NCBI GenBank assembly: GCA_027013225.1
Contig: JALUXU010000051.1
Coordinates: 1 to 44,762 of the forward strand
Reading direction: 5' to 3'
DNA: 44,762 nucleotides
DNA from: Acidihalobacter sp.
GTDB lineage: Bacteria > Pseudomonadota > Gammaproteobacteria > DSM-5130 > Acidihalobacteraceae
The notes beneath the pieces are model-generated. The model ran no database searches. It was not told the origin of the DNA and saw only the letters and a list, made by a program, of their open reading frames with translations. The position numbers and the translations under genes were made by a program. Below, in pieces: positions 11,964 through 22,227 of the stretch (position 1 is the stretch's first letter; each line of letters starts with the position of its first letter).

Positions 11964-13059
11964 TCAGAGCCCGCTCTTGAGCGCGGCTTCGATGAATGGA
12001 TCGATATTGCCATCGAGGACGGACTGGGTATTGCCGATCTCGACGCCGGTACGCAAGTCTTTGATGCGCGACTGGTCGAGCACATAGGAACGAATCTGAC
12101 TCCCCCAACCGATATCTGACTTGGATTCCTCCAGCGCCTGTTGTTCGGCACTGCGTTTTTGCAGCTCCAACTCGTACAGCTTGGCTTTGAGCTGCTTCAT
12201 CGCCGTGGCACGATTCTTGTGCTGGGAACGGTCGTTCTGGCACTGGGTCACGATGCCCGTTGGCAAATGCGTGATGCGCACCGCCGATTCGGTGCGGTTG
12301 ACGTGCTGGCCGCCGGCGCCACTGGCCCGATAGACGTCGATGCGCAAGTCGGCAGGGTTGATGTCAATATCGATGTCATCGTCGATTTCAGGCGCCACGA
12401 ACACCGCCGCGAAGGAAGTGTGCCGCCGATTACCCGAATCGAAAGGCGACTTGCGCACCAAACGATGGACGCCGGTTTCCGTACGCAGCCAGCCAAACGC
12501 GTACTCGCCCTCGAAGCGCACCGTGGCGCTCTTGATGCCCGCCACTTCGCCCTCGGATACTTCGATCAATTCGGTCTTGAATCCGCGCCTCTCACCCCAG
12601 CGCAAATACATGCGCAACAGCATTTCGGCCCAATCCTGGGCTTCAGTCCCGCCCGAACCGGCCTGAATGTCGAGGAAGGCGTTACTGGCATCCATTTCCC
12701 CCGAAAACATGCGCCTAAACTCCAGCTTGCCCACTTCAGCGGCATAGCGCTCGAGATCGTTTTCGACGGCCGTTACCGTGTCTTCGTCCTCTTCCGCTTC
12801 GGCTAGCTCCAGCAATTCACGGGCATCCGTCAAACCGCTGCTCAAGCGGTCATAGACATCGACCACCGCCTCCAGTTGGGCGCGCTCTTTCCCAAGCGCC
12901 TGAGCACGCTCGGGGTCATTCCATACATCGGGAAGTTCAAGCTCCCGCCTAACCTCTTCTAGCCGTTCGCGTTTGGTTTCGAGGTCAAAGATACCCCCTC
13001 AGCGCTTCGAGGCGCTGCGAAAGATCCTGAATTTGGTGATACAAGGGATTCAATTCCAT
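11964..13059 (-). CDS. prfB: Peptide chain release factor 2, with programmed +1 frameshift
   Basis: RF2 ends translation at UGA and UAA. The gene is read as 13059-12988 (24 codons), then after CTT the ribosome skips one base (T at 12987) and continues 12986-11964, giving 364 residues. Without the shift it stops at TGA 12985-12987. The SPF stop-recognition tripeptide is visible ([15 protein letters not shown]), as is the catalytic GGQ ([17 protein letters not shown]). The ATG at 13059 has AGGAAG 11 bases upstream. Annotation pipelines that ignore the shift would start it falsely at 12866. First gene of the prfB-lysS operon. Confidence 0.95.
12984..12999 (-). promoter_or_regulatory. prfB programmed frameshift site
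   Basis: Minus-strand AGGGGGTATCTTTGAC: an internal Shine-Dalgarno (AGGGGG) three bases before the slippery CTT, then in-frame TGA C. It is the classic E. coli arrangement and autoregulates RF2: low RF2 means more frameshifting. Confidence 0.95.
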
Positions 13060-13161: not shown

Positions 13162-13236
13162 TTTGCCGTTTAGACAGGACCGCGTCATCTAACCGTGGCG
13201 AATTTAGATGACAGGGCCCTGGCCGTTTAGATGACG
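13162..13236. repeat. Cluster of short TTTAGATGAC repeats, mobile-element end remnants
   Basis: Within 75 bases the motif occurs about four times: GCCGTTTAGA (13164), inverted GTCATCTAAC (13184), GAATTTAGATGAC (13200) and GCCGTTTAGATGAC (13222). The segment 13198-13221 recurs exactly in inverted orientation at 26200-26223. The last copy supplies the final codons and TAA of the hemerythrin gene. I infer insertion-sequence or MITE end remnants; no transposase is present. Confidence 0.55.
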
Positions 13237-13769
13237 TTATCGTGCACACCCCGTCGATTCGCCATCGCCCGTCCCATTTCGGACAGATCGTCGGCGCTCA
13301 GAATGCGGCGCGCCACAGAAAACAATTTTTCTTCCTCGAATCGAACGTGTTCACGCTCCAGGGTGATGAAAGTCCCGGCCTGGTCAAGCGGGCATGCATG
13401 CCCTTCATTGATGGCTTGAAGCTGTGGGCGCAAAGCATTCCATGCCTCGGCTTGGTAAACATGTTCGGCAGCGATGTGCCGCCGCCAGCCTTCCACCAGT
13501 CCTCGCTCGCCCGCGGCATCAAGGCGGCGCTGCATCCTTGGCAGCAGATCTTCTTCCTCGTCCTGATGATGTAAGGGCGCGGCGCGATCAAAGTAGTTCA
13601 AAATGCGCCCGGCCGCCGCTTGCGCTTGCGCATCAGCGCCTGCGACTTGAAGATGCTCTTGCAATCGCTCAAGCGTGTCGCAAAAGCCGATGATGCGGCG
13701 GTGACAGGCCAAAAGCAGATCCAGCGGGGAATCGAAGCCCGCTGAAACGGAAGGCATCAAGTTATTCAT
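13227..13769 (-). CDS. Hemerythrin-domain protein (HHE), cytoplasmic
   Basis: 180 residues. Diiron hemerythrins bind O2 or sense O2 and NO. Ligand-type motifs are seen in four helices: CHRRIIGFCDTLE (about 24), LHHQDEEEDLL (about 70), HIAAEH (about 100) and REHVRFEEEKLF (about 145). The ATG at 13769 overlaps the stop of the lipoyl-carrier gene (ATGA), so it is coupled to it; six extra residues would be added by an earlier ATG. The stop codon and last residues (NVI) lie inside a repeated GTCATCTAA motif, so the original C-terminus may have been replaced. It is the intact relative of the deleted copy at 6429-6662. Confidence 0.85.
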   Translation of the reverse strand: MNNLMPSVSAGFDSPLDLLLACHRRIIGFCDTLERLQEHLQVAGADAQAQAAAGRILNYFDRAAPLHHQDEEEDLLPRMQRRLDAAGERGLVEGWRRHIAAEHVYQAEAWNALRPQLQAINEGHACPLDQAGTFITLEREHVRFEEEKLFSVARRILSADDLSEMGRAMANRRGVHDNVI

Positions 13770-14212
13770 TCGGTACAGCGCATGCACTGAATGCCATAGC
13801 GGTCGATCCAGGCATGCAACGCCTTAATGGCTTCTTCGCCGGTATGCATGGAATCCAGCGCATGCTCCGGGTCGGTGGGAGCCAGCCGGGCGATCCACGC
13901 ATCATGATACGGATCAATGTTGAGCAGGTGCGGCGTTTCCAGCAAGGCTTCGTTACGCGCCACCACCTTGCCCTCGAAGGGCAAGGGCACGCCTCCAGCC
14001 CATTTGCCGCTTTCAAGGGTGGCCACTTGACGGCCAGCGGGAACAACCTTGCCCACCGGCTTGATGCGCACTCGCAAAATACGACCCGCAAAGGACTGCG
14101 CCGGATCGGTGATACCCATGGTGATGGTGCCATCGCCTTCGGGACAGGCCCATACATAGTCGAGATCGTAATACAGTTCTTCAGGCAGTTCGCATCCGTG
14201 ATATTGACTCAT
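13766..14212 (-). CDS. GcvH-like lipoyl carrier protein with C-terminal CxxC
   Basis: 148 residues of the glycine-cleavage H / lipoate-binding protein fold. The lipoylation hairpin is TLESGKWAGGVPLPFEG, with Lys at about 71 as the attachment site; N-terminal GCELPEELYYD and MGITDPAQ fit the lipoate-binding (LbpA) type found in sulfur oxidisers more than housekeeping GcvH, though the assignment is not proven. Residues after 125 form an extra tail ending CMRCTE, a CxxC not found in ordinary GcvH. No gcvT/gcvP lie near. It sits between two hemerythrin genes, both joined by ATGA overlaps, so it works with them rather than in glycine cleavage. Confidence 0.82.
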   Translation of the reverse strand: MSQYHGCELPEELYYDLDYVWACPEGDGTITMGITDPAQSFAGRILRVRIKPVGKVVPAGRQVATLESGKWAGGVPLPFEGKVVARNEALLETPHLLNIDPYHDAWIARLAPTDPEHALDSMHTGEEAIKALHAWIDRYGIQCMRCTE

Positions 14213-14688
14213 GCCCTGATCTCCTCGTTGTGCGCCTTACGCAGGGCGTCGGCCGCCGCCTCGGCCACATCTTTCAACGGCCCATCGCCCATAAACAGAG
14301 GAAATATATCGCCCTCCTCGGTGCGATGATGGTCGGCGATTACCCGCGCAAGTAATTCGATGGCCTCCTCGGCCTCTTCGGCTTCTCTGTCCTCAATCGC
14401 TGATATGACTTCTTCGGCATAAGCGGGAATCTCGACATGACGCTTGCGCAGAATCGACAGCGTGCGCTCCAGATCCTCGTCTCCGGACGCCAGTTCATCG
14501 ACCTTGGGATAGACCCATTGCTCTTCCACATCAATATGCGATTGCAACGCATGACGAAGGGCGCGGGCGCGTTCTAGCGCCTCTTCCCAGCTATCTTGAT
14601 CTACCAGCGTCTTCAGCTGCTTAATTTCCTCTTCGGTACGGCGGTGATCACCGATGAATGCCTCCTCAAGCGGATCATGATGACTCAT
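14209..14688 (-). CDS. Hemerythrin-domain protein (HHE), first gene of FNR-box operon
   Basis: 159 residues, acidic, all-helical, with two HxxxE(E) motifs, HIDVEEQWVYP (about residue 51) and HHRTEEGDIFP (about 119), plus DHRRTEEE at the N-terminus and KRHVEI in between, so a complete diiron site is likely. Only distantly similar to the second hemerythrin of the same operon. No signal peptide. An FNR box lies 63 bases upstream, and GGAG-rich sequence precedes the ATG. Confidence 0.86.
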   Translation of the reverse strand: MSHHDPLEEAFIGDHRRTEEEIKQLKTLVDQDSWEEALERARALRHALQSHIDVEEQWVYPKVDELASGDEDLERTLSILRKRHVEIPAYAEEVISAIEDREAEEAEEAIELLARVIADHHRTEEGDIFPLFMGDGPLKDVAEAAADALRKAHNEEIRA

Positions 14689-14750
14689 TGCCTATTCCTC
14701 CTTTTTGAGTCGTGGAGTACACAGCATATTAAACAAATAGCTTTTACGCC

Positions 14751-14764
14751 TTGATGCAGATCAA
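14751..14764. promoter_or_regulatory. Perfect FNR/Anr box between the divergent operons
   Basis: TTGATGCAGATCAA matches the FNR consensus TTGAT-N4-ATCAA at every fixed base. Its centre (14757.5) is 41.5 bases before a start predicted at about 14799 for the rightward operon, whose -10 is TATTAT (14787-14792): class II activator geometry. Leftward, a -10-like TATGCT (14728-14723) fits the same spacing. Anaerobic activation of both sides is inferred. Confidence 0.8.
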
Positions 14765-14786
14765 GGCATTGCCGCGCCAAACAGAT

Positions 14787-14792
14787 TATTAT
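14787..14792 (+). promoter_or_regulatory. -10 element of the thioredoxin-like operon
   Basis: TATTAT, placed as expected for an FNR-activated class II promoter with the box at 14751-14764. There is no good -35, as is usual for such promoters. Confidence 0.55.
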
Positions 14793-14816
14793 CATAGAAA
14801 CAAAGGAGGCTCCATG

Positions 14817-15074
14817 ATGAGTAAGAAAGTGCAACTTCTGGTTTCCGAGTGGTGTCCGACCTGTTCCCAGGCGGAACAGCTCTGGAAACAACTCGCGGCA
14901 CAAACGGGCGCCGAACTCGAAATCCTGGATGTGGCCAAGCGTCCCGGTCGAGATATCGTCGCCAAACTGATGATCCGGTCGGTGCCGGCGGCGGTCATAG
15001 ACGACAAACTGGCCTTTGTCGGCGTTCCCGATCCGGAAAAGGCGCGGGCGGCGATTGTCGGGGACGACGCATGA
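14817..15074 (+). CDS. Thioredoxin-like CPTC protein
   Basis: 85 residues, a minimal thioredoxin/glutaredoxin fold with the redox pair CPTC at about residues 13-16 (SEWCPTCSQAEQLW) and the cis-proline segment IRSVPAAVID. Such short proteins reduce or relay disulfides or persulfides of specific partners. Two ATGs (14814, 14817) follow AAAGGAGG; the second has the better 7-base spacing. First gene of the rightward FNR-box operon and overlapped by the DUF488 gene. Confidence 0.8.
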   Translation: MSKKVQLLVSEWCPTCSQAEQLWKQLAAQTGAELEILDVAKRPGRDIVAKLMIRSVPAAVIDDKLAFVGVPDPEKARAAIVGDDA

Positions 15075-15436
15075 GCCCAGGGCATCACCGCATCCGCATC
15101 AAGCGGATCTATGAAACACCCGCTCCTGATGACGGCCTGCGGATTCTGGTGGACCGGCTTTGGCCAAGGGGCTTGCGCAAGGAAAACGCGCGCATCGATC
15201 ACTGGCTGAAGGAGATCGCTCCTTCCGACGCTTTGCGGCGAGAATTCGGCCACGACGTTTCGAAATGGGCCATGTTTCAGCACCGTTACCGTGAAGAACT
15301 GGCGGCCAATCCGGCACTGGAAGAGCTTCGCGCGCTGGCCTCGCAAAACGATATCACTTTGCTGTACGCCGCGAAGGACGAGGCTCACAACCAAGCCGTG
15401 ATACTCAAACAGGTGCTAGAGGAAAACCTGAAGTGA
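15071..15436 (+). CDS. DUF488 family protein
   Basis: 121 residues, matching DUF488 from end to end: IRIKRIYETP, DGLRILVDRLWPRGLRKENARIDHWLKEIAPS, FGHD, WAMFQHRYREEL, and TLLYAAKDEAHNQAVIL. The function is unknown, and the small basic fold with conserved Arg, Trp and His suggests an enzyme or nucleic-acid binder. In many proteobacteria such genes sit near hemerythrin or globin genes. ATGA overlap with the thioredoxin-like gene and GTGA overlap with the next gene show one transcript. Confidence 0.85.
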   Translation: MSPGHHRIRIKRIYETPAPDDGLRILVDRLWPRGLRKENARIDHWLKEIAPSDALRREFGHDVSKWAMFQHRYREELAANPALEELRALASQNDITLLYAAKDEAHNQAVILKQVLEENLK

Positions 15437-15930
15437 CCGCCATGGAAGCGGTTTCTCCGCGCAGGCCACACCTGACGCTACTGGTGTTGCTGGGCATGGT
15501 ATTGACCGTGACATTACAGCTCGTCTCCGGCCTGATGCTGGCTCTTGGTCAGTACTGGGTATTGCCGTGGCACATCGTCGACGGTCAGGTCACTGCGGGC
15601 TTCTTGCTCGCCGAATGGGCTTGGCTGCTTTTCAGCCCCTCCGGGCGCACTCATTTTCGCCGGATTTTTCTGCTTTCCGCCAGTTACCGGCGCAACTTGC
15701 TTGAACACCTGCGAGGCAAAGGCGGCACGCCTCTGCGCGAAGGCTTAAATGGCGCGCTGGAAGGCGTTTTTATGCTCGCCGCCAGCGCGGCCGTCGCGTT
15801 CGGCCTGGCCCTATGGCAAGGCTGTGCGGCCTGTCTTGACTGGCACCGCGCACTCGCGGTGACGCTCGCCGTCCTGTGGATCGCTCATTCGCTGCTCAGC
15901 GCCTGCGACCATTGGCCAAGGAAGCGATAA
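15433..15930 (+). CDS. Four-helix membrane protein, possibly cytochrome b-like
   Basis: 165 residues, no family recognised with certainty. Four hydrophobic helices are seen at about 14-38, 45-66, 107-128 and 136-158. Histidines sit inside or at the ends of helices 2 and 4 (LPWHIVDGQ, DWHRALA, WIAHSLL), an arrangement that could hold b-type heme, as in DUF4405/cytochrome b561-like bundles; this is inference. The GTG at 15433 overlaps the DUF488 stop; an ATG nine bases on is an alternative. Last gene of the FNR-box operon, convergent with the AMMECR1 gene. Confidence 0.7.
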   Translation: MTAMEAVSPRRPHLTLLVLLGMVLTVTLQLVSGLMLALGQYWVLPWHIVDGQVTAGFLLAEWAWLLFSPSGRTHFRRIFLLSASYRRNLLEHLRGKGGTPLREGLNGALEGVFMLAASAAVAFGLALWQGCAACLDWHRALAVTLAVLWIAHSLLSACDHWPRKR

Positions 15931-15964: not shown

Positions 15965-16543
15965 TCAGAACTCTTCCGTGGTATAGCGCCAGGCTCGCAT
16001 GGTTGGGCTTTCGTAATCGGGCGGCAGGCCGGCCTTGCGCTTTAGCGCCGCGATGAAATCCCGGGCATCAGGCAATTGCTCCCACACGCTCGGCAAGAAC
16101 GTGGCCTTGTATTGTCCATCCTGTAGGATCAGGCCGTCCACCCCGGGTCGGAGCGCCCGCAACAGGCTATCCGTGTCGGCGGCCGGTAAAGGCTCGGGCG
16201 GACTGAGTACAGAAATCTTGATATCAAGGGCATCCAGTTCCTCCGGTCGCAGAGGCGGGAAGCGAGGATCCTGAAAAGCCGCTGCAAACGCATGATCCGC
16301 AACATCCTGAGCCAGTGGTTGGTAGGCCTCGAGCGCACCGATGCAACCTCGCAACAGGCCGCGCTCCTGTAGGGTTACGAAACTGGCGCGGTGTTCACGC
16401 AGCTTATCCGGTTCGGTTGAAAGATCGGCGCGCAATGGCCTGCCGCTTTCAAATCCGTGCCGGATCGACGCCTCGGCGATCGCATGCAGACGCGCCCGCT
16501 CTTGCGGCGTGTAATGTGTATTAAGCGACTTCCCAAGCACCAT
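15965..16543 (-). CDS. amrA: AmmeMemoRadiSam system protein A (AMMECR1 domain)
   Basis: 192 residues covering an AMMECR1 domain: the signature LRGCIGALEAYQPLAQDVADHAFAAAFQDPRFPPL is visible (cysteine at about 70), followed by IKISVLSPPEPL and GVDGLILQDG. Function not established; the three-gene system is thought to act on radical or redox-dependent modification. The start at 16543 overlaps the end of the Memo gene by 23 bases, so the two are coupled. A longer frame upstream lies inside Memo and is not coding. Confidence 0.88.
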   Translation of the reverse strand: MVLGKSLNTHYTPQERARLHAIAEASIRHGFESGRPLRADLSTEPDKLREHRASFVTLQERGLLRGCIGALEAYQPLAQDVADHAFAAAFQDPRFPPLRPEELDALDIKISVLSPPEPLPAADTDSLLRALRPGVDGLILQDGQYKATFLPSVWEQLPDARDFIAALKRKAGLPPDYESPTMRAWRYTTEEF

Positions 16544-17333
16544 ATCCCACCACCTGTTCTCTTGGTCCGGCCGTATCGCCGGAGTTACGCAAATCCAGCC
16601 GCTTGACATGGGCGCCGTGACGACGCGCTTCCAGCAGCAGGCCTTGTATGGGTATCCGCCCACATGCCTGCTCATAAGCGATTGCTTCGGGCTCCAGATG
16701 CTCGATAGCCTCGGCAGTAAGACGGTCGAGCTCGCGGGCGCTGAAATAATCCAGATAGTGGCTCAGATCCGAACTGATGAGAATCAAGGTATGCGGATCG
16801 TCCCAAAACAGCTCCAGCACCCGCGACACTTCTTCCGGGGAAGCATCACCGACAACGATCGGCACCAGCTTGAAGCCATCGCCCAGCACGACCTGCAAAA
16901 ACGGTAGCTGCACTTCAAGGCTGTGCTCTTGGGCATGCGGTGTATCGGACTCGATCACAAACGGCAGCTCACGCAGGTGCTCTATCGCCTCCCGATCCAA
17001 AGGAACTCTCCCCAATGGGGTCATGAATCCGTCGACGGAGGGTGCGGCCAATCCGCGAAAAGCAACACGATGGGCCGGCCCCAACAGAATGACGCGGCGA
17101 ATCTCGTTGCGTTGTGGAATCAAACGGGCATAGGCATGCGCCGCCACCGGTCCTGAATAGATATAACCGGCATGCGGCACGATCAGCGCCTTGAGCGGCT
17201 GCGGTTTCAATCCGGCCTCGTCCTCCGCCGCTGCTTCGAGATAGCGGACGATAGTCGAACGCAGTGTCTGCGGGTCATCCGGATAGAACATCCCGGCCAC
17301 AGCCGGCGGACGTACACGAGTTGATGTATTCAT
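16521..17333 (-). CDS. amrB: AmmeMemoRadiSam system protein B (Memo family)
   Basis: 270 residues, full length for the Memo family, related in fold to class III extradiol dioxygenases. The conserved metal-site histidines can be seen in VPHAGYIYSGPVAAH, LGPAHR, EHSLEVQLPFL and SSDLSHYL. Human Memo1 binds iron or copper; the bacterial role is unknown. First gene of a leftward pair with the AMMECR1 gene, divergent from the radical SAM member with about 137 bases between. Confidence 0.9.
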   Translation of the reverse strand: MNTSTRVRPPAVAGMFYPDDPQTLRSTIVRYLEAAAEDEAGLKPQPLKALIVPHAGYIYSGPVAAHAYARLIPQRNEIRRVILLGPAHRVAFRGLAAPSVDGFMTPLGRVPLDREAIEHLRELPFVIESDTPHAQEHSLEVQLPFLQVVLGDGFKLVPIVVGDASPEEVSRVLELFWDDPHTLILISSDLSHYLDYFSARELDRLTAEAIEHLEPEAIAYEQACGRIPIQGLLLEARRHGAHVKRLDLRNSGDTAGPREQVVGYGAWEVA

Positions 17334-17470
17334 CTTCCTTTGGTTCCTCTAAGACTTCACTGATGTACATATGTAGTCCGTGCCCGCGATTATCAAGCCC
17401 CCCTTGAAATAATGGTTTTATCCTCCATAGTCATTCTAAGAGAATGTTTTTAATACATGGAATTACCGAT

Positions 17471-18559
17471 ATGCAAAATTCATCTAGCTCGTCCATTGTT
17501 GAAACCAAATACTGGCATACCCTCGAAGACGGCCGCGTGCAATGCGACGTGTGCCCTCGCTTTTGCAAACTGCACGAAGGACAACAAGGACTGTGTTTCG
17601 TACGCGCCAACCAAGGCGGGCGCATCGTAATGACCAGTTATGGCCGCTCCAGCGGCTTCGTCATCGACCCGATTGAGAAAAAGCCGCTCAATCACTTCCT
17701 TCCCGGCAGCGGCGTGTTGTCGTTTGGCACCGCCGGCTGCAACCTCGCCTGCAAGTATTGCCAGAACTGGGACATGAGCAAGGCGCGCGACATGGATCGC
17801 CTGATGGATCAGGCCAGCCCCGAACAGCTCGCCGAAGCCGCACGCCAAGTGGGCGCGCGATCTTTGGCTTATACCTACAACGATCCGGTGATCTTTCTCG
17901 AATATGCGATTGATACGGCCAAGGAAGCACGCAAAAGAGGCGTCAAGAACGTGGCGGTCACTGCTGGCTACATCACGCCCGAACCTCGCGCCGAATTTTT
18001 TGCGCATATGGATGCCGCCAACATCGACCTCAAATCATTCGATGAAAAATTTTATTACAAGCTCTGCGGAGGACATCTGCAACCGGTGCTTGACACAATC
18101 GAATACGTGGCCAAAGAAACCGATTGCTGGCTGGAACTGACCACCTTGCTGATCCCCGGCCACAACGATTCGCCCACCGAGATCGAACGCATGTGTCAGT
18201 GGTTGCTGGAACATGCGGGGCCTGACGTACCCTTGCACTTCACCGCCTTCCACCCCGACTTCAAAATGATCGACGTGCCTCCGACGCCGCCAGAAACGCT
18301 CAGCCAGGCACGGGAAATCGCCCTCAAACAAGGATTGCGCTTCGTCTATACAGGCAACGTGCATGACGAAGGAGGCGAAAGCACCTATTGTTCCCACTGC
18401 GGCCACAAACTGATCGGACGCGACTGGTTCACCCTCACCCACTGGGAACTCGATCATGGCCATTGCCCGAAATGCGGCACCGCCCTGCCGGGCGTTTTCG
18501 AAGACAAGCCCGGTGACTGGGGCGCCCGCCGCCTGCCGATCAGGATTGCCGCCGCATGA
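17471..18559 (+). CDS. amrS: AmmeMemoRadiSam system radical SAM enzyme
   Basis: 362 residues. The radical SAM motif CNLACKYCQNW is at about residue 94. Before it is a cysteine-rich head, CDVCPRFCKLHEGQQGLC (related to pyruvate-formate-lyase activases), and after the barrel a C-terminal zinc- or rubredoxin-like knuckle YCSHCGHK...HCPKCGTALPG. This combination is specific to the AmmeMemoRadiSam group. The ATG at 17471 begins the conserved part with GGA at a usable distance; an ATG at 17444 would add nine residues. A weak promoter (TTGAAA 17404, CATAGT 17426) precedes it. A strong terminator follows 17 bases after the stop. Confidence 0.9.
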   Translation: MQNSSSSSIVETKYWHTLEDGRVQCDVCPRFCKLHEGQQGLCFVRANQGGRIVMTSYGRSSGFVIDPIEKKPLNHFLPGSGVLSFGTAGCNLACKYCQNWDMSKARDMDRLMDQASPEQLAEAARQVGARSLAYTYNDPVIFLEYAIDTAKEARKRGVKNVAVTAGYITPEPRAEFFAHMDAANIDLKSFDEKFYYKLCGGHLQPVLDTIEYVAKETDCWLELTTLLIPGHNDSPTEIERMCQWLLEHAGPDVPLHFTAFHPDFKMIDVPPTPPETLSQAREIALKQGLRFVYTGNVHDEGGESTYCSHCGHKLIGRDWFTLTHWELDHGHCPKCGTALPGVFEDKPGDWGARRLPIRIAAA

Positions 18560-18678: not shown

Positions 18679-18732
18679 TCAGCGCGCAACAAGTTAATAT
18701 TGCGCTTTTCTTTTTCTTGCCAGAGAGAAGCC

Positions 18733-21700
18733 ATGCCTACACACGCTCGTTTTCCCGGATTGGAACGCCTCGACCTTAACTATTCGGATTTGCGCACAGC
18801 GCATGGATTGAACAAACTCGACGCGGCTTTTCGTGAAAAGTTGAGCCAAAAGGCGCCCGAGCTTGCCGAAATTCTTGAAGCCACCCGCCAAGGCAAAGGG
18901 CCGGAAGGCCAGGAACTCAGCGAATGGCTGATTGCCACATCCATCCATGTCGAGGATTTTTTGACAGAAATCTTCGGCATCGCACCTGAGATGGAGTCGT
19001 TGCGACAAGAAATCCTCGCCCAGGATCCAGTCATGCGCATGAAAGCCGGGCTGGTTTCCCGCCGTGCTCGCCGCTATCGAGGTGAGATCAAATCTGACCT
19101 GGATGAACTACATGCCTGGGTAATGGCAAAAGCTGCGGAACTGGAACCCGATGACCCCGAGCTTGGCGTGGCCCGCTTGTTCGATCGTCTCGTCGATGAC
19201 TCCGAGGCGGCCGACGATCTGGAACGTCTGGTGCAATGGGCGGCACTGACGCTCAAACACCCCGAGCGCGTCGCCGGCTGGGTAAGCTTCCATCTGCCGG
19301 AGCGCGTCGATCATGCCCGCCTGGTCAACCTCCAGCCAGCACCTGAACAAGGATGCAAGACCATCCGCCTGCAGGCCGATCCGGCCACATGGCGCAAACG
19401 CGATGGCTTCGCCCTCACCGATACCCGAGCCAGCATGCGGGAGGTGCAAGATCAGGTGAACTACTGCATTTTCTGCCACGATCACGATGGCGATTTTTGC
19501 TCCAAAGGTTTTCCTGAGAAAAAAGGCTCGCCCGAACTGGGGCTCAAACACGATCCACTGGGCAACATTCTCACCGGCTGTCCGGTGGAGGAAAAAATCT
19601 CGGAAATGCACGTTTTGCGGCGCGACGGCCGGCCATTGGCGGCTCTGGCCATGGCGATGCGCGACAACCCCATGCTTCCTGCCACCGGTCATCGCATATG
19701 CAACGACTGCATGAAAGCCTGCATCTACCAAAAGCAGGATCCGGTCAACATTCCGCAGATCGAAACCCGTACCCTGACCGACATTCTCGACCTGCCCTGG
19801 GGCATCGAACTGTATGACCTGCTCACCCGCTGGAATCCTCTGCGTCACAAGCAAGCCGTGATGGCCGCATACAATGGCCACAGAGTGCTCATCGCGGGGA
19901 TGGGGCCGGCTGGATTTACCATGGCGCACCACCTGACTCAAGAAGGCTGCGCCGTGGTCGGCATCGACGGACTGAAAATAGAGCCCTTACCTCAGGACCT
20001 GATCGACAACCCCGTAGAACACTGGAACGACCTGGTCGAACCGCTGGACAAAAGAATTCTGCTCGGTTTCGGCGGGGTCGCCGAATACGGCATTACCCCG
20101 CGCTGGGACAAGAACTTTCTCAAGCTGATTTATCTCACCCTGCTGCGCCGCCCGACCTTTCAGGTTTTCGGCGGCGTGCGCCTCGGCGGCACCCTGACAC
20201 TGGAAGACGCCTGGCGGCTGGGCTTCGACCACATTTGCCTCGCCACCGGCGCCGGCTTGCCACGCGTCATCCCCATGGGCAACAGCCTCGCTCGCGGCAT
20301 GCGTCAAGCCAGCGACTTTCTCATGGCGCTGCAACTGACCGGCGCCGCCAAGGAAGAAAGTCTGGCCAATCTGCAAGTGCGTCTGCCGGCGGTGGTCATC
20401 GGCGGCGGACTGACCGCCATAGATACCGCCACCGAAGTCCAGGCTTACTACATAAAACAGGTCGAAAAAATTCTTGCTCGCTACGAAGCTCTTCAAGCCG
20501 AGGGCGGCAATGAAGAGATTCTGCCCGGACTCAACCCAGAGGATCAGGGCGTGCTCGAAGAATTTCTCGCCCATGGCCGCGAGGTACGGGCCGAACGCGA
20601 ACGCGCGGCGGCCGAAGGTCGCCGGCCGGACTTCATCCCCTTGCTGCGGCAATGGGGCGGTGTCACCCTGGCCTATCGCAAAGGCATGAATGCCTCACCG
20701 GCCTACCTCCGCAATCATGAGGAGATCATCAAGGCCGCCGAAGAAGGCATCTATTACGCCGAAGGGCTCGATCCTGTGCGCGTGGAACTGGATGAATTTC
20801 AGCATACCCAAGCCGTGGTCTTCCGCCGCGTCGTGGCGGAGGAAGGCCGCTGGATCGGCACAGGAGAAGAGATACGCCTGCCCGCCCGCGCCGTGTTCGT
20901 GGCCGCCGGCACCGTCCCCAACACCATTTACGAGCGGGAACATCCAAACACCTTCGAACTGGAAGGCACCCACTACAGACCCTACCGCAATCACACCGGC
21001 CACCTCCAGCCGGTCGATGTCGCTGAACATTGCAAAAGCACCGAGTTCGGTGGATTCACCTCTTATGAACACGAGGGCCGGAAAATTACCTTCCTGGGCG
21101 ACACCAACCCCGTGTTCAACGGCAGCGTAGTCAAGGCGGTGGCTTCGGCCAAGCGCAGCTATGGTGGGGTTATGCGTGCGCTTTCCATTCTCTCCCCACA
21201 CACCGAGGAACCCTATCAAGCGTTCGCTGAAATCCTGCGTGATCGCCTGACTGCCACCGTCGCCGAAGTGATCCGGCCGAATCCGGCCGTGGTCGAACTG
21301 TGGGTGCGCGCCCCCCTGGCCGCCCGCAATTTCAGGCCGGGGCAATTCTTCCGCCTGCAAACTTTTGAAAGCGACAGCCAAATAGTAGAAAACACCCGTT
21401 TGCAAATCCCGGTGATCACCGTCAGTGGCACTGGTGTAGAAGGCGACAAGATCCGGCTTCTGGTTCTGCAATGGGGCAGCAGCCCTCGCCTGGTGGGTCG
21501 TCTCAAGGCCGGCGACCGACTCGTTCTCATGGGGCCCACCGGCGCGCCCGCCCATATCCCTGAAGGCAAAACCGTGCTCATCATCGCCGGCCGCTGGGGC
21601 GCTGCCGTGATGTTGGATCTCGGCCCGGCGCTTCGTGCCGCGGGCAATCGTGTGGTTTATGTGGGCGCATTCAGCTCGGCGCACGAACTCGACCGCCAGG

Positions 21701-22227
21701 ATGAGCTCGAAGCCGCCGCCGACCAGATCATTTGGGCCGTCGGCTCGGGTCGCCAGATCGAGGCACGGCGCCCGCAGGACATCAGCATCGAGTCCCGTGA
21801 CGTGGTCGACCTGCTCTGCCGTTACAGCGCGGGCGAATTCACCACGCCGGAACAGGTGCATGAGCCCTTGAGCGCTGTCGATCAAGTAATGGTCATGGGT
21901 TCCACGGGCTTACTGAACGCGTTCCAGCAAGCTTTGCGGCCGAAAGGCAAACTGCATGCATTGTTCAAAACCGATGTGCAGGCATTCGGCACCGTCGGCA
22001 GCCCCATGCAATGCATGCTCAAGGGGGTGTGTGGCCAATGCCTGCAGTGGCAGATCGACCCGGAGACCGGAGAACGCACGCGCGCCGTTTTTTCCTGCGC
22101 GGAGCAGGATCAACCCCTCTCCTGGATCGACATCGGCAACCTCGCCGCGCGTCAAGCCCAGAACCGCCTGTCCGACCGCCTCGCCGGCCGCTGGCTGGAT
22201 CATGTATTGGCGCGGGCTCAGGATTGA
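18733..22227 (+). CDS. Fused GltD/NfnB-like and PyrK/NfnA-like flavoprotein
   Basis: 1164 residues. Residues 1-230 are an uncharacterised helical domain. Residues ~240-340 carry cysteine groups (CIFCHDHDGDFC, CPVEEK, CNDCMKAC) like the Fe-S head of GltD and NfnB. Around 388 is an FAD motif (AGMGPAGFTMAHHL) and around 555 the NAD(P) motif (IGGGLTAIDTATE). From ~840 a ferredoxin-reductase-type FAD/NAD module follows (RPGQFFRLQ, GPTGAPAHIPEG), ending in a PyrK-type [2Fe-2S] cysteine set CMLKGVCGQC...C near 1094. The layout is that of NADH-dependent ferredoxin:NADP oxidoreductase with both subunits on one chain, so pyridine-nucleotide transhydrogenation or electron bifurcation is possible; the substrate is unknown. 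Start chosen at 18733 after AGAGAGAA. Transcribed alone. Confidence 0.8.
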   Translation: MPTHARFPGLERLDLNYSDLRTAHGLNKLDAAFREKLSQKAPELAEILEATRQGKGPEGQELSEWLIATSIHVEDFLTEIFGIAPEMESLRQEILAQDPVMRMKAGLVSRRARRYRGEIKSDLDELHAWVMAKAAELEPDDPELGVARLFDRLVDDSEAADDLERLVQWAALTLKHPERVAGWVSFHLPERVDHARLVNLQPAPEQGCKTIRLQADPATWRKRDGFALTDTRASMREVQDQVNYCIFCHDHDGDFCSKGFPEKKGSPELGLKHDPLGNILTGCPVEEKISEMHVLRRDGRPLAALAMAMRDNPMLPATGHRICNDCMKACIYQKQDPVNIPQIETRTLTDILDLPWGIELYDLLTRWNPLRHKQAVMAAYNGHRVLIAGMGPAGFTMAHHLTQEGCAVVGIDGLKIEPLPQDLIDNPVEHWNDLVEPLDKRILLGFGGVAEYGITPRWDKNFLKLIYLTLLRRPTFQVFGGVRLGGTLTLEDAWRLGFDHICLATGAGLPRVIPMGNSLARGMRQASDFLMALQLTGAAKEESLANLQVRLPAVVIGGGLTAIDTATEVQAYYIKQVEKILARYEALQAEGGNEEILPGLNPEDQGVLEEFLAHGREVRAERERAAAEGRRPDFIPLLRQWGGVTLAYRKGMNASPAYLRNHEEIIKAAEEGIYYAEGLDPVRVELDEFQHTQAVVFRRVVAEEGRWIGTGEEIRLPARAVFVAAGTVPNTIYEREHPNTFELEGTHYRPYRNHTGHLQPVDVAEHCKSTEFGGFTSYEHEGRKITFLGDTNPVFNGSVVKAVASAKRSYGGVMRALSILSPHTEEPYQAFAEILRDRLTATVAEVIRPNPAVVELWVRAPLAARNFRPGQFFRLQTFESDSQIVENTRLQIPVITVSGTGVEGDKIRLLVLQWGSSPRLVGRLKAGDRLVLMGPTGAPAHIPEGKTVLIIAGRWGAAVMLDLGPALRAAGNRVVYVGAFSSAHELDRQDELEAAADQIIWAVGSGRQIEARRPQDISIESRDVVDLLCRYSAGEFTTPEQVHEPLSAVDQVMVMGSTGLLNAFQQALRPKGKLHALFKTDVQAFGTVGSPMQCMLKGVCGQCLQWQIDPETGERTRAVFSCAEQDQPLSWIDIGNLAARQAQNRLSDRLAGRWLDHVLARAQD

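Follow-up and report, generated by a model that had tools for sequence, protein, structure and literature searches.

A third clade of lipoate-binding proteins in sulfur-oxidizing bacteria, encoded in a putative nitric oxide-responsive module

A 44,762-nucleotide contig of Acidihalobacter sp. (JALUXU010000051.1, assembly GCA_027013225.1; hereafter the window) carries, at 13227–15930, two divergent operons of three genes each, which lie 125 bases apart and encode a GcvH-like lipoyl carrier, two hemerythrin-domain proteins (HHE1 and HHE2), a small thioredoxin-like protein (Trx), a DUF488 protein, and a four-helix membrane protein. Our comparisons place the carrier among the lipoate-binding proteins (LbpA) of sHdr sulfur oxidizers, in a third clade apart from GcvH, LbpA1, and LbpA2; this assignment, which was missed by an earlier sequence-only reading of the locus, is the core of the finding, and we coin the name LbpA3 for the protein. 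The proposed regulation of the module and its apparent association with sHdr are well supported by the sequences compared, and its chemistry is something we infer. We give even weight to the proposal that the locus is a nitric oxide (NO)-responsive accessory module of sHdr sulfur oxidation.

LbpA3 (13766–14212, minus strand; 148 amino acids) matches the Pfam family GCV_H (2e-32). The hallmarks of LbpA proteins are a lipoyl lysine and extra cysteines near both ends, the latter absent from GcvH (PMC6067878). LbpA3 shows all of these features: the strictly conserved lipoyl lysine, K70, lies within ESGKW; cysteines are present near the N-terminus (C7) and the C-terminus (C143); and a further cysteine, C146, makes a C-terminal CxxC motif (C143-M-R-C146, CMRC), where LbpA1 and LbpA2 have one C-terminal cysteine. 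C7, K70, C143, and C146 are invariant both in the 10 sequences of the first search and in the 52 of a larger alignment, and the second C-terminal cysteine, as it appears in these alignments, is new to us. An AlphaFold model of LbpA3 (pLDDT 93) has the H-protein fold plus a helix at the C-terminus and the CMRC tail; GcvH, which LbpA3 resembles in fold and lipoylation motif, provides its best PDB and Foldseek matches.

In a maximum-likelihood tree (quick method, SH-aLRT support only), LbpA3 falls outside GcvH (support 99) and forms its own clade (98), which is sister to LbpA1 (94); LbpA2 (95) and LbpA1 (99) are each separate from it, and the tree thus assigns LbpA3 to neither established LbpA group. 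GcvH identity was rejected, as LbpA3 scores 72.9 bits against an equivalog cut-off of 115.9 bits and lies outside the GcvH clade; the window genome carries its own GcvH on another contig (C5). LbpA3 shares with LbpA1 and LbpA2 the H-protein fold, the lipoyl lysine, the extra cysteines near both ends, and occurrence in sHdr genomes (PMC6067878, PMC10332631). Unlike them, it is encoded mostly outside the shdr cluster, together with Trx and hemerythrins and with a DNR/FNR-type box.

The window genome has a complete sHdr cluster on contig C4, a different contig from that of the lbpA3 locus, in the order rhodanese, sHdrC1, B1, A, hypothetical, C2, B2, LbpA1, DsrE, LbpA2, LipS1, sLplA, LipT, LipS2 (genes named by resemblance to published clusters, with no model search); lbpA3 in the window is therefore neither in nor beside an shdr cluster. 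LbpA3 occurs in 18 of 369 genomes of the class, and matches to LbpA1 or LbpA2 were found in 16 of these 18 as compared with 16 of the 351 genomes that lack LbpA3 (Fisher 2e-17, a value that, like the genome counts, ignores shared ancestry). sHdrB1 is present in 18 of 19 LbpA3 genomes (the one without it is an assembly of 75% completeness) and in 23 of the 25 genomes behind further lbpA3 loci. A phylum-wide sample of 398 genomes yielded LbpA3 in the window genome and one other, the latter also with an LbpA. The sHdrB1 gene adjoins lbpA3 in one genome (G030, locus L037) and is close to it at two loci (L057 and L073); the in-frame stops that the search gave for sHdrB1 in three genomes were read, from their coordinates, as the genes' own stop codons, where the matches end. 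A scan of a genome collection gave 80 lbpA3 loci, many of them from metagenome-assembled genomes (MAGs), distributed over Acidithiobacillus, Acidiferrobacter-type MAGs, Thioalkalivibrio, Sulfuriferula, Thiobacillus, Sideroxydans, and other MAGs. As far as sequence matches can tell, the near-restriction of LbpA3 to type I sHdr genomes is well supported.

The gene neighborhood of lbpA3 recurs as well. In the 73 loci that extend at least 2.5 kb to either side of lbpA3, we counted genes (six-frame open reading frames, not curated gene calls) within 4 kb of it; queries with HHE1 and HHE2 converged on one set after profile iteration and were counted jointly. A Trx gene is present in 70 loci, a hemerythrin-domain gene in 61, a DNR-like regulator gene in 46, a gene for an NnrS/COX1-like protein with four transmembrane helices (4TM) in 34, a DUF488 gene in 20, a lipoate-ligase-like gene in 14, and a globin gene in 13. 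Trx is the most constant partner, separated from lbpA3 by no more than 100 bases in 30 of the 70 loci (median 517); whether DUF488 and the b561-like membrane protein are present depends on the lineage, and both are accessory. Three arrangements can be distinguished: globin-reductase-Trx-HHE-lbpA3 in Acidithiobacillus, where the globin is Hmp-like; lbpA3-HHE with divergent HHE and Trx-DUF488 in Acidiferrobacter-type loci, which is close to that of the window; and 4TM-lbpA3-Trx in Thioalkalivibrio and beta lineages, where Trx is fused to a second 4TM domain (NnrS/COX1-like). Of 16 Acidiferrobacter-type loci, 14 have a lipoate-ligase paralogue near lbpA3 (L078:6168–7877 and L080:6169–7284, for example); it shares about 25% identity with sLplA and is transcribed divergently from the neighboring DNR-like gene.

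The sequence-only reading had proposed that the six genes form a coherent redox module of no described system, and had named failure of the set to co-occur in other genomes as grounds for refutation. The set does co-occur, and our search of the open-access literature found no description of the module, of DUF488 with hemerythrin, of GcvH-like proteins with hemerythrin, or of a protein called LbpA3 (only unrelated lipid and plant papers). What recurs is a core with Trx and hemerythrins; the inclusion of DUF488 and the membrane protein holds in some lineages only.

Two alternatives bear directly on this neighborhood. The first is a lipoyl-dependent NO or peroxide reductase, in which LbpA3 and Trx donate electrons and the diiron or 4TM heme-type proteins reduce NO, with no role in sulfur oxidation; the lipoyl-fed AhpD/AhpC system of mycobacteria provides a model. 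The frequency of Trx and hemerythrin domains near lbpA3 and the fusion of Trx to a 4TM NnrS/COX1-like domain agree with such a reductase. However, it leaves the near-exclusive occurrence of LbpA3 in type I sHdr genomes unexplained, we noticed neither an AhpC nor an E3-type reductase in the neighborhoods examined, and we regard it as improbable. The second is a loose co-regulation of unrelated NO or low-oxygen stress genes that share one DNR/FNR box and no pathway. Differences among lineages in DUF488, the globin, the membrane protein, and the DNR gene speak for it, but LbpA3 and Trx (Trx-membrane fusions counted) stay together in Acidithiobacillus, in Acidiferrobacter-type and Thioalkalivibrio loci, and in beta lineages, which makes it the least probable explanation that we considered.

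Between the two operons lies the promoter box TTGATGCAGATCAA (14751–14764, no strand assigned; extended form, CGCCTTGATGCAGATCAAGGCA), the central, perfect TTGAT-N4-ATCAA site on which the sequence-only reading had based FNR control. No other perfect match occurs in the window, and the 2.27-Mb genome has 12 in all. With at most one mismatch, the box is found upstream of lbpA3 in all 10 loci formed by the window and its class relatives, in all 11 Thioalkalivibrio-type loci, in 17 of 24 beta/other loci, and in 7 of 15 Acidiferrobacter-type loci, as compared with 0.1–0.6 boxes expected per locus group from dinucleotide shuffles, which were preferred to reversed sequences because a palindromic motif makes the latter an unfair control. 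Given that the gene set recurs in 73 loci and that the box exceeds the shuffled expectation, the grouping is not due to chance.

Several observations point to DNR as the regulator. Together, 44 distinct sites give cTTGATnnnn(A/G)TCAAgG, which is similar to the published DNR motif, CTTGATnnnnATCAAG (PMC1274295), and a box of this type is present in the window and kept in relatives. The window genome encodes a dnr-like gene (G000:C9) that adjoins hcr and hcp, and the perfect box at the hcp-hcr-dnr promoter shares its CGCCTTGAT flank with the lbpA3 box, whereas A/T flanks border the perfect boxes before a cytochrome bd-type oxidase and a molybdopterin oxidoreductase. For the regulator encoded beside lbpA3 in the closest relative (L035), the PDB entry that matches best is P. 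aeruginosa DNR (1e-32, as compared with 9e-13 for FNR). DNR-like proteins occur in 14 of the 19 LbpA3 genomes; in 10, the gene and lbpA3 are no more than 2.6 kb apart. Because of the DNR-like flanks and the DNR-like regulators beside lbpA3, we read the box as a probable DNR-type, NO-responsive site that FNR may share; the earlier assignment was right about an FNR-type box, and FNR becomes a possible second user of what is better read as a DNR site. Known DNR/NnrR regulons likewise combine a CTTGATnnnnATCAAG-type box and a DNR-like regulator with NnrS-like, globin, and hemerythrin genes; a text search of the survey that describes them (PMC1274295) returned no “lipo” or “thioredoxin” term, and the lbpA3 module has genes of both kinds.

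A candidate −10 element, TATTAT (14787–14792, plus strand), read from the sequence, would place the center of the box at −41.5 of the plus operon, a class II spacing; the element is not conserved in relatives. No promoter was listed by a sigma-70 consensus scan, as is common for activator-dependent promoters.

HHE1 (14209–14688, minus strand; Pfam Hemerythrin, 1e-16), the first gene product of its operon, and HHE2 (13227–13769, minus strand; Pfam Hemerythrin, 3e-12) both carry the four-histidine, two-glutamate diiron set of YtfE, in which the ligands are H84, H129/E133, H160, and H204/E208 (PMC9268430). In HHE1 these residues are H15, H51, E55, H84, H120, and E124 (97–100% conserved in 40 sequences); in HHE2 they are H29, H73, E77, H109, H147, and E151 (100% conserved in 44 sequences; numbering from GTG 13787). 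The likeness to YtfE/RIC, an H-HxxxE-H-HxxxE ligand set, is limited to the HHE domain, and RIC identity was rejected: HHE1 scores 20.9 bits against a cut-off of 204.7, and HHE2 has no RIC match. One HHE2 homologue (L041:10768–11646) has a C-terminal extension that seems to resemble DUF1971/YeaR; a separate protein near lbpA3 in another locus (L119) is apparently of the same kind.

Trx (14814–15074, plus strand; 86 amino acids) is the CPTC thiol protein of the sequence-only reading and matches Pfam Thioredoxin_3 (2e-13); its W-C-x-x-C motif is at least 90% conserved. The DUF488 protein (15071–15436, plus strand; Pfam DUF488/DUF488-N3i, 6e-41) belongs to a family whose N3i subclade is termed “inactive” in Pfam, and no relative of it was found in the PDB. 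The membrane protein (15433–15930, plus strand) has four helices, with H47, H138, and H152 invariant in five sequences; it is weakly similar to cytochrome b561 (Pfam E 0.12, below the cut-off), and a Foldseek search with it gave no match below E 1. An AhpD match to this protein was rejected, as its CxxC is not conserved. Elsewhere in the genome, a perfect TTGATN4ATCAA box (G000:C63:124386–124399, locus L149) lies 73 bases before the gene for a 169-amino-acid CopD-like membrane protein, and a similar membrane-protein gene comes after DUF488 in 13 Acidiferrobacter-type loci, as judged by eye.

For the NO-responsive accessory module, we propose the following course of events: when NO appears, probably at low oxygen, a DNR-type activator (possibly also FNR) would bind the central box and start both operons, a step supported by motif, regulator, and neighborhood; K70 of LbpA3 would receive its lipoyl group from the sHdr cluster's dedicated sLpl(AB)/LipS1/S2 machinery or, at Acidiferrobacter-type loci, from the ligase encoded there; the lipoyl arm and CxxC of LbpA3 could exchange electrons or sulfane sulfur with Trx, and heme-type membrane proteins, where present, could link this exchange to the quinone pool; and the YtfE-type diiron proteins may bind or reduce NO, while the lipoyl/Trx pair may give reducing power or repair NO-modified thiols. 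The lipoyl-dependent sHdr pathway might thereby be protected, or replaced, under NO. Reactive nitrogen species block or modify lipoyl arms in other enzymes (PMC9974485), and therefore a need to protect sHdr lipoyl chemistry is plausible. A more specific version, in which LbpA3 is an NO-inducible carrier of electrons or sulfur that couples sHdr to NO detoxification and the respiratory membrane through its CxxC and a dedicated Trx (membrane-fused in some lineages), is put forward tentatively and is on balance doubtful. The sequence-only reading had suggested a response to NO, oxygen, or persulfide with a link to the respiratory quinone pool. Here NO is favored because of the DNR-type flanks, the DNR-like genes beside lbpA3, the YtfE-type ligands, and the globin and NnrS-like neighbors; a sulfur link is supported because LbpA3 associates with sHdr genomes; and the quinone link may hold.

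A number of points weigh against this proposal. No sHdrB1 match was obtained in 2 of the 25 genomes behind further loci; four genomes with LbpA1, LbpA2, and sHdrB1 are without LbpA3, which is therefore accessory; and the partners vary by lineage, so that no one fixed route by way of DUF488 or the b561-like protein can hold for all loci. That LbpA3 is lipoylated is also something we infer: residue conservation and the ligase gene in some loci suggest that the protein is competent for it. Moreover, no DNR-like regulator was found in 5 of the 19 LbpA3 genomes, and the window genome also encodes an FNR with N-terminal cysteines; oxygen control is therefore possible. In an alternative built on such control, FNR would induce LbpA3 as oxygen falls, LbpA3 and Trx would carry sulfane sulfur to sHdr or reoxidize LbpA1/2, and the hemerythrins would scavenge or buffer oxygen, NO being incidental. 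This low-oxygen sulfur-transfer branch would also fit the perfect boxes before the oxidase and oxidoreductase genes and the phylogenetic tie of LbpA3 to LbpA1 and sHdr. However, the flanks of the lbpA3 box differ from those at the oxidase and oxidoreductase sites, DNR-like genes stand beside lbpA3, and the hemerythrin ligands are those of YtfE and not the different set of oxygen-carrier hemerythrins; we thus consider it rather unlikely.

If the accessory-module proposal is true, NO defense would be joined to sulfur-oxidation chemistry in sulfur bacteria; in the more specific version, protein-bound lipoate would also gain a role beyond the sHdr core and the metabolism of 2-oxoacids and glycine. 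LbpA3, a third clade encoded apart from the core cluster, with a Trx partner and apparent NO-type regulation, offers a defined and testable entry point to the questions of how sulfur and electrons are passed on by LbpA proteins in the sHdr pathway and how this pathway survives NO. Its carriers include Acidithiobacillus, Thioalkalivibrio, Sulfuriferula, and relatives, and the matter bears on bioleaching, mine drainage, and sulfur cycling in soda lakes.

As to the layout of the locus, all six genes of the sequence-only reading are confirmed at the divergent promoter, and the overlaps that it described are present at all four within-operon junctions: ATGA at 14212–14209, 13769–13766, and 15071–15074, and GTGA at 15433–15436. 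HHE2 most likely starts at ATG 13769, which overlaps the lbpA3 stop, and Trx most likely at ATG 14814, preceded by AAAGGAGG.

On the plus-operon side, the three AmmeMemoRadiSam components adjoin the module at 15965–18559: an AMMECR1 domain (minus strand), Memo (minus strand), and a radical SAM enzyme (plus strand). At 18700–22227 is the gene for a 1175-amino-acid glutamate-synthase-beta/ferredoxin-reductase-like protein, the best NCBIfam match of which, PRK06567, is partial and below the cut-off. At the opposite end, where the 3′ end of HHE2 lies beside the peptide release factor 2 gene (prfB), a GTTTAGATGAC-like 11-mer occurs three times, once inverted, at 13184–13235; the window has four such matches with at most one mismatch, as compared with 0.5 expected. 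prfB itself reads AGGGGGTATCTTTGAC at 12985–13000 (minus strand), which resembles the known programmed +1 frameshift site of this gene.

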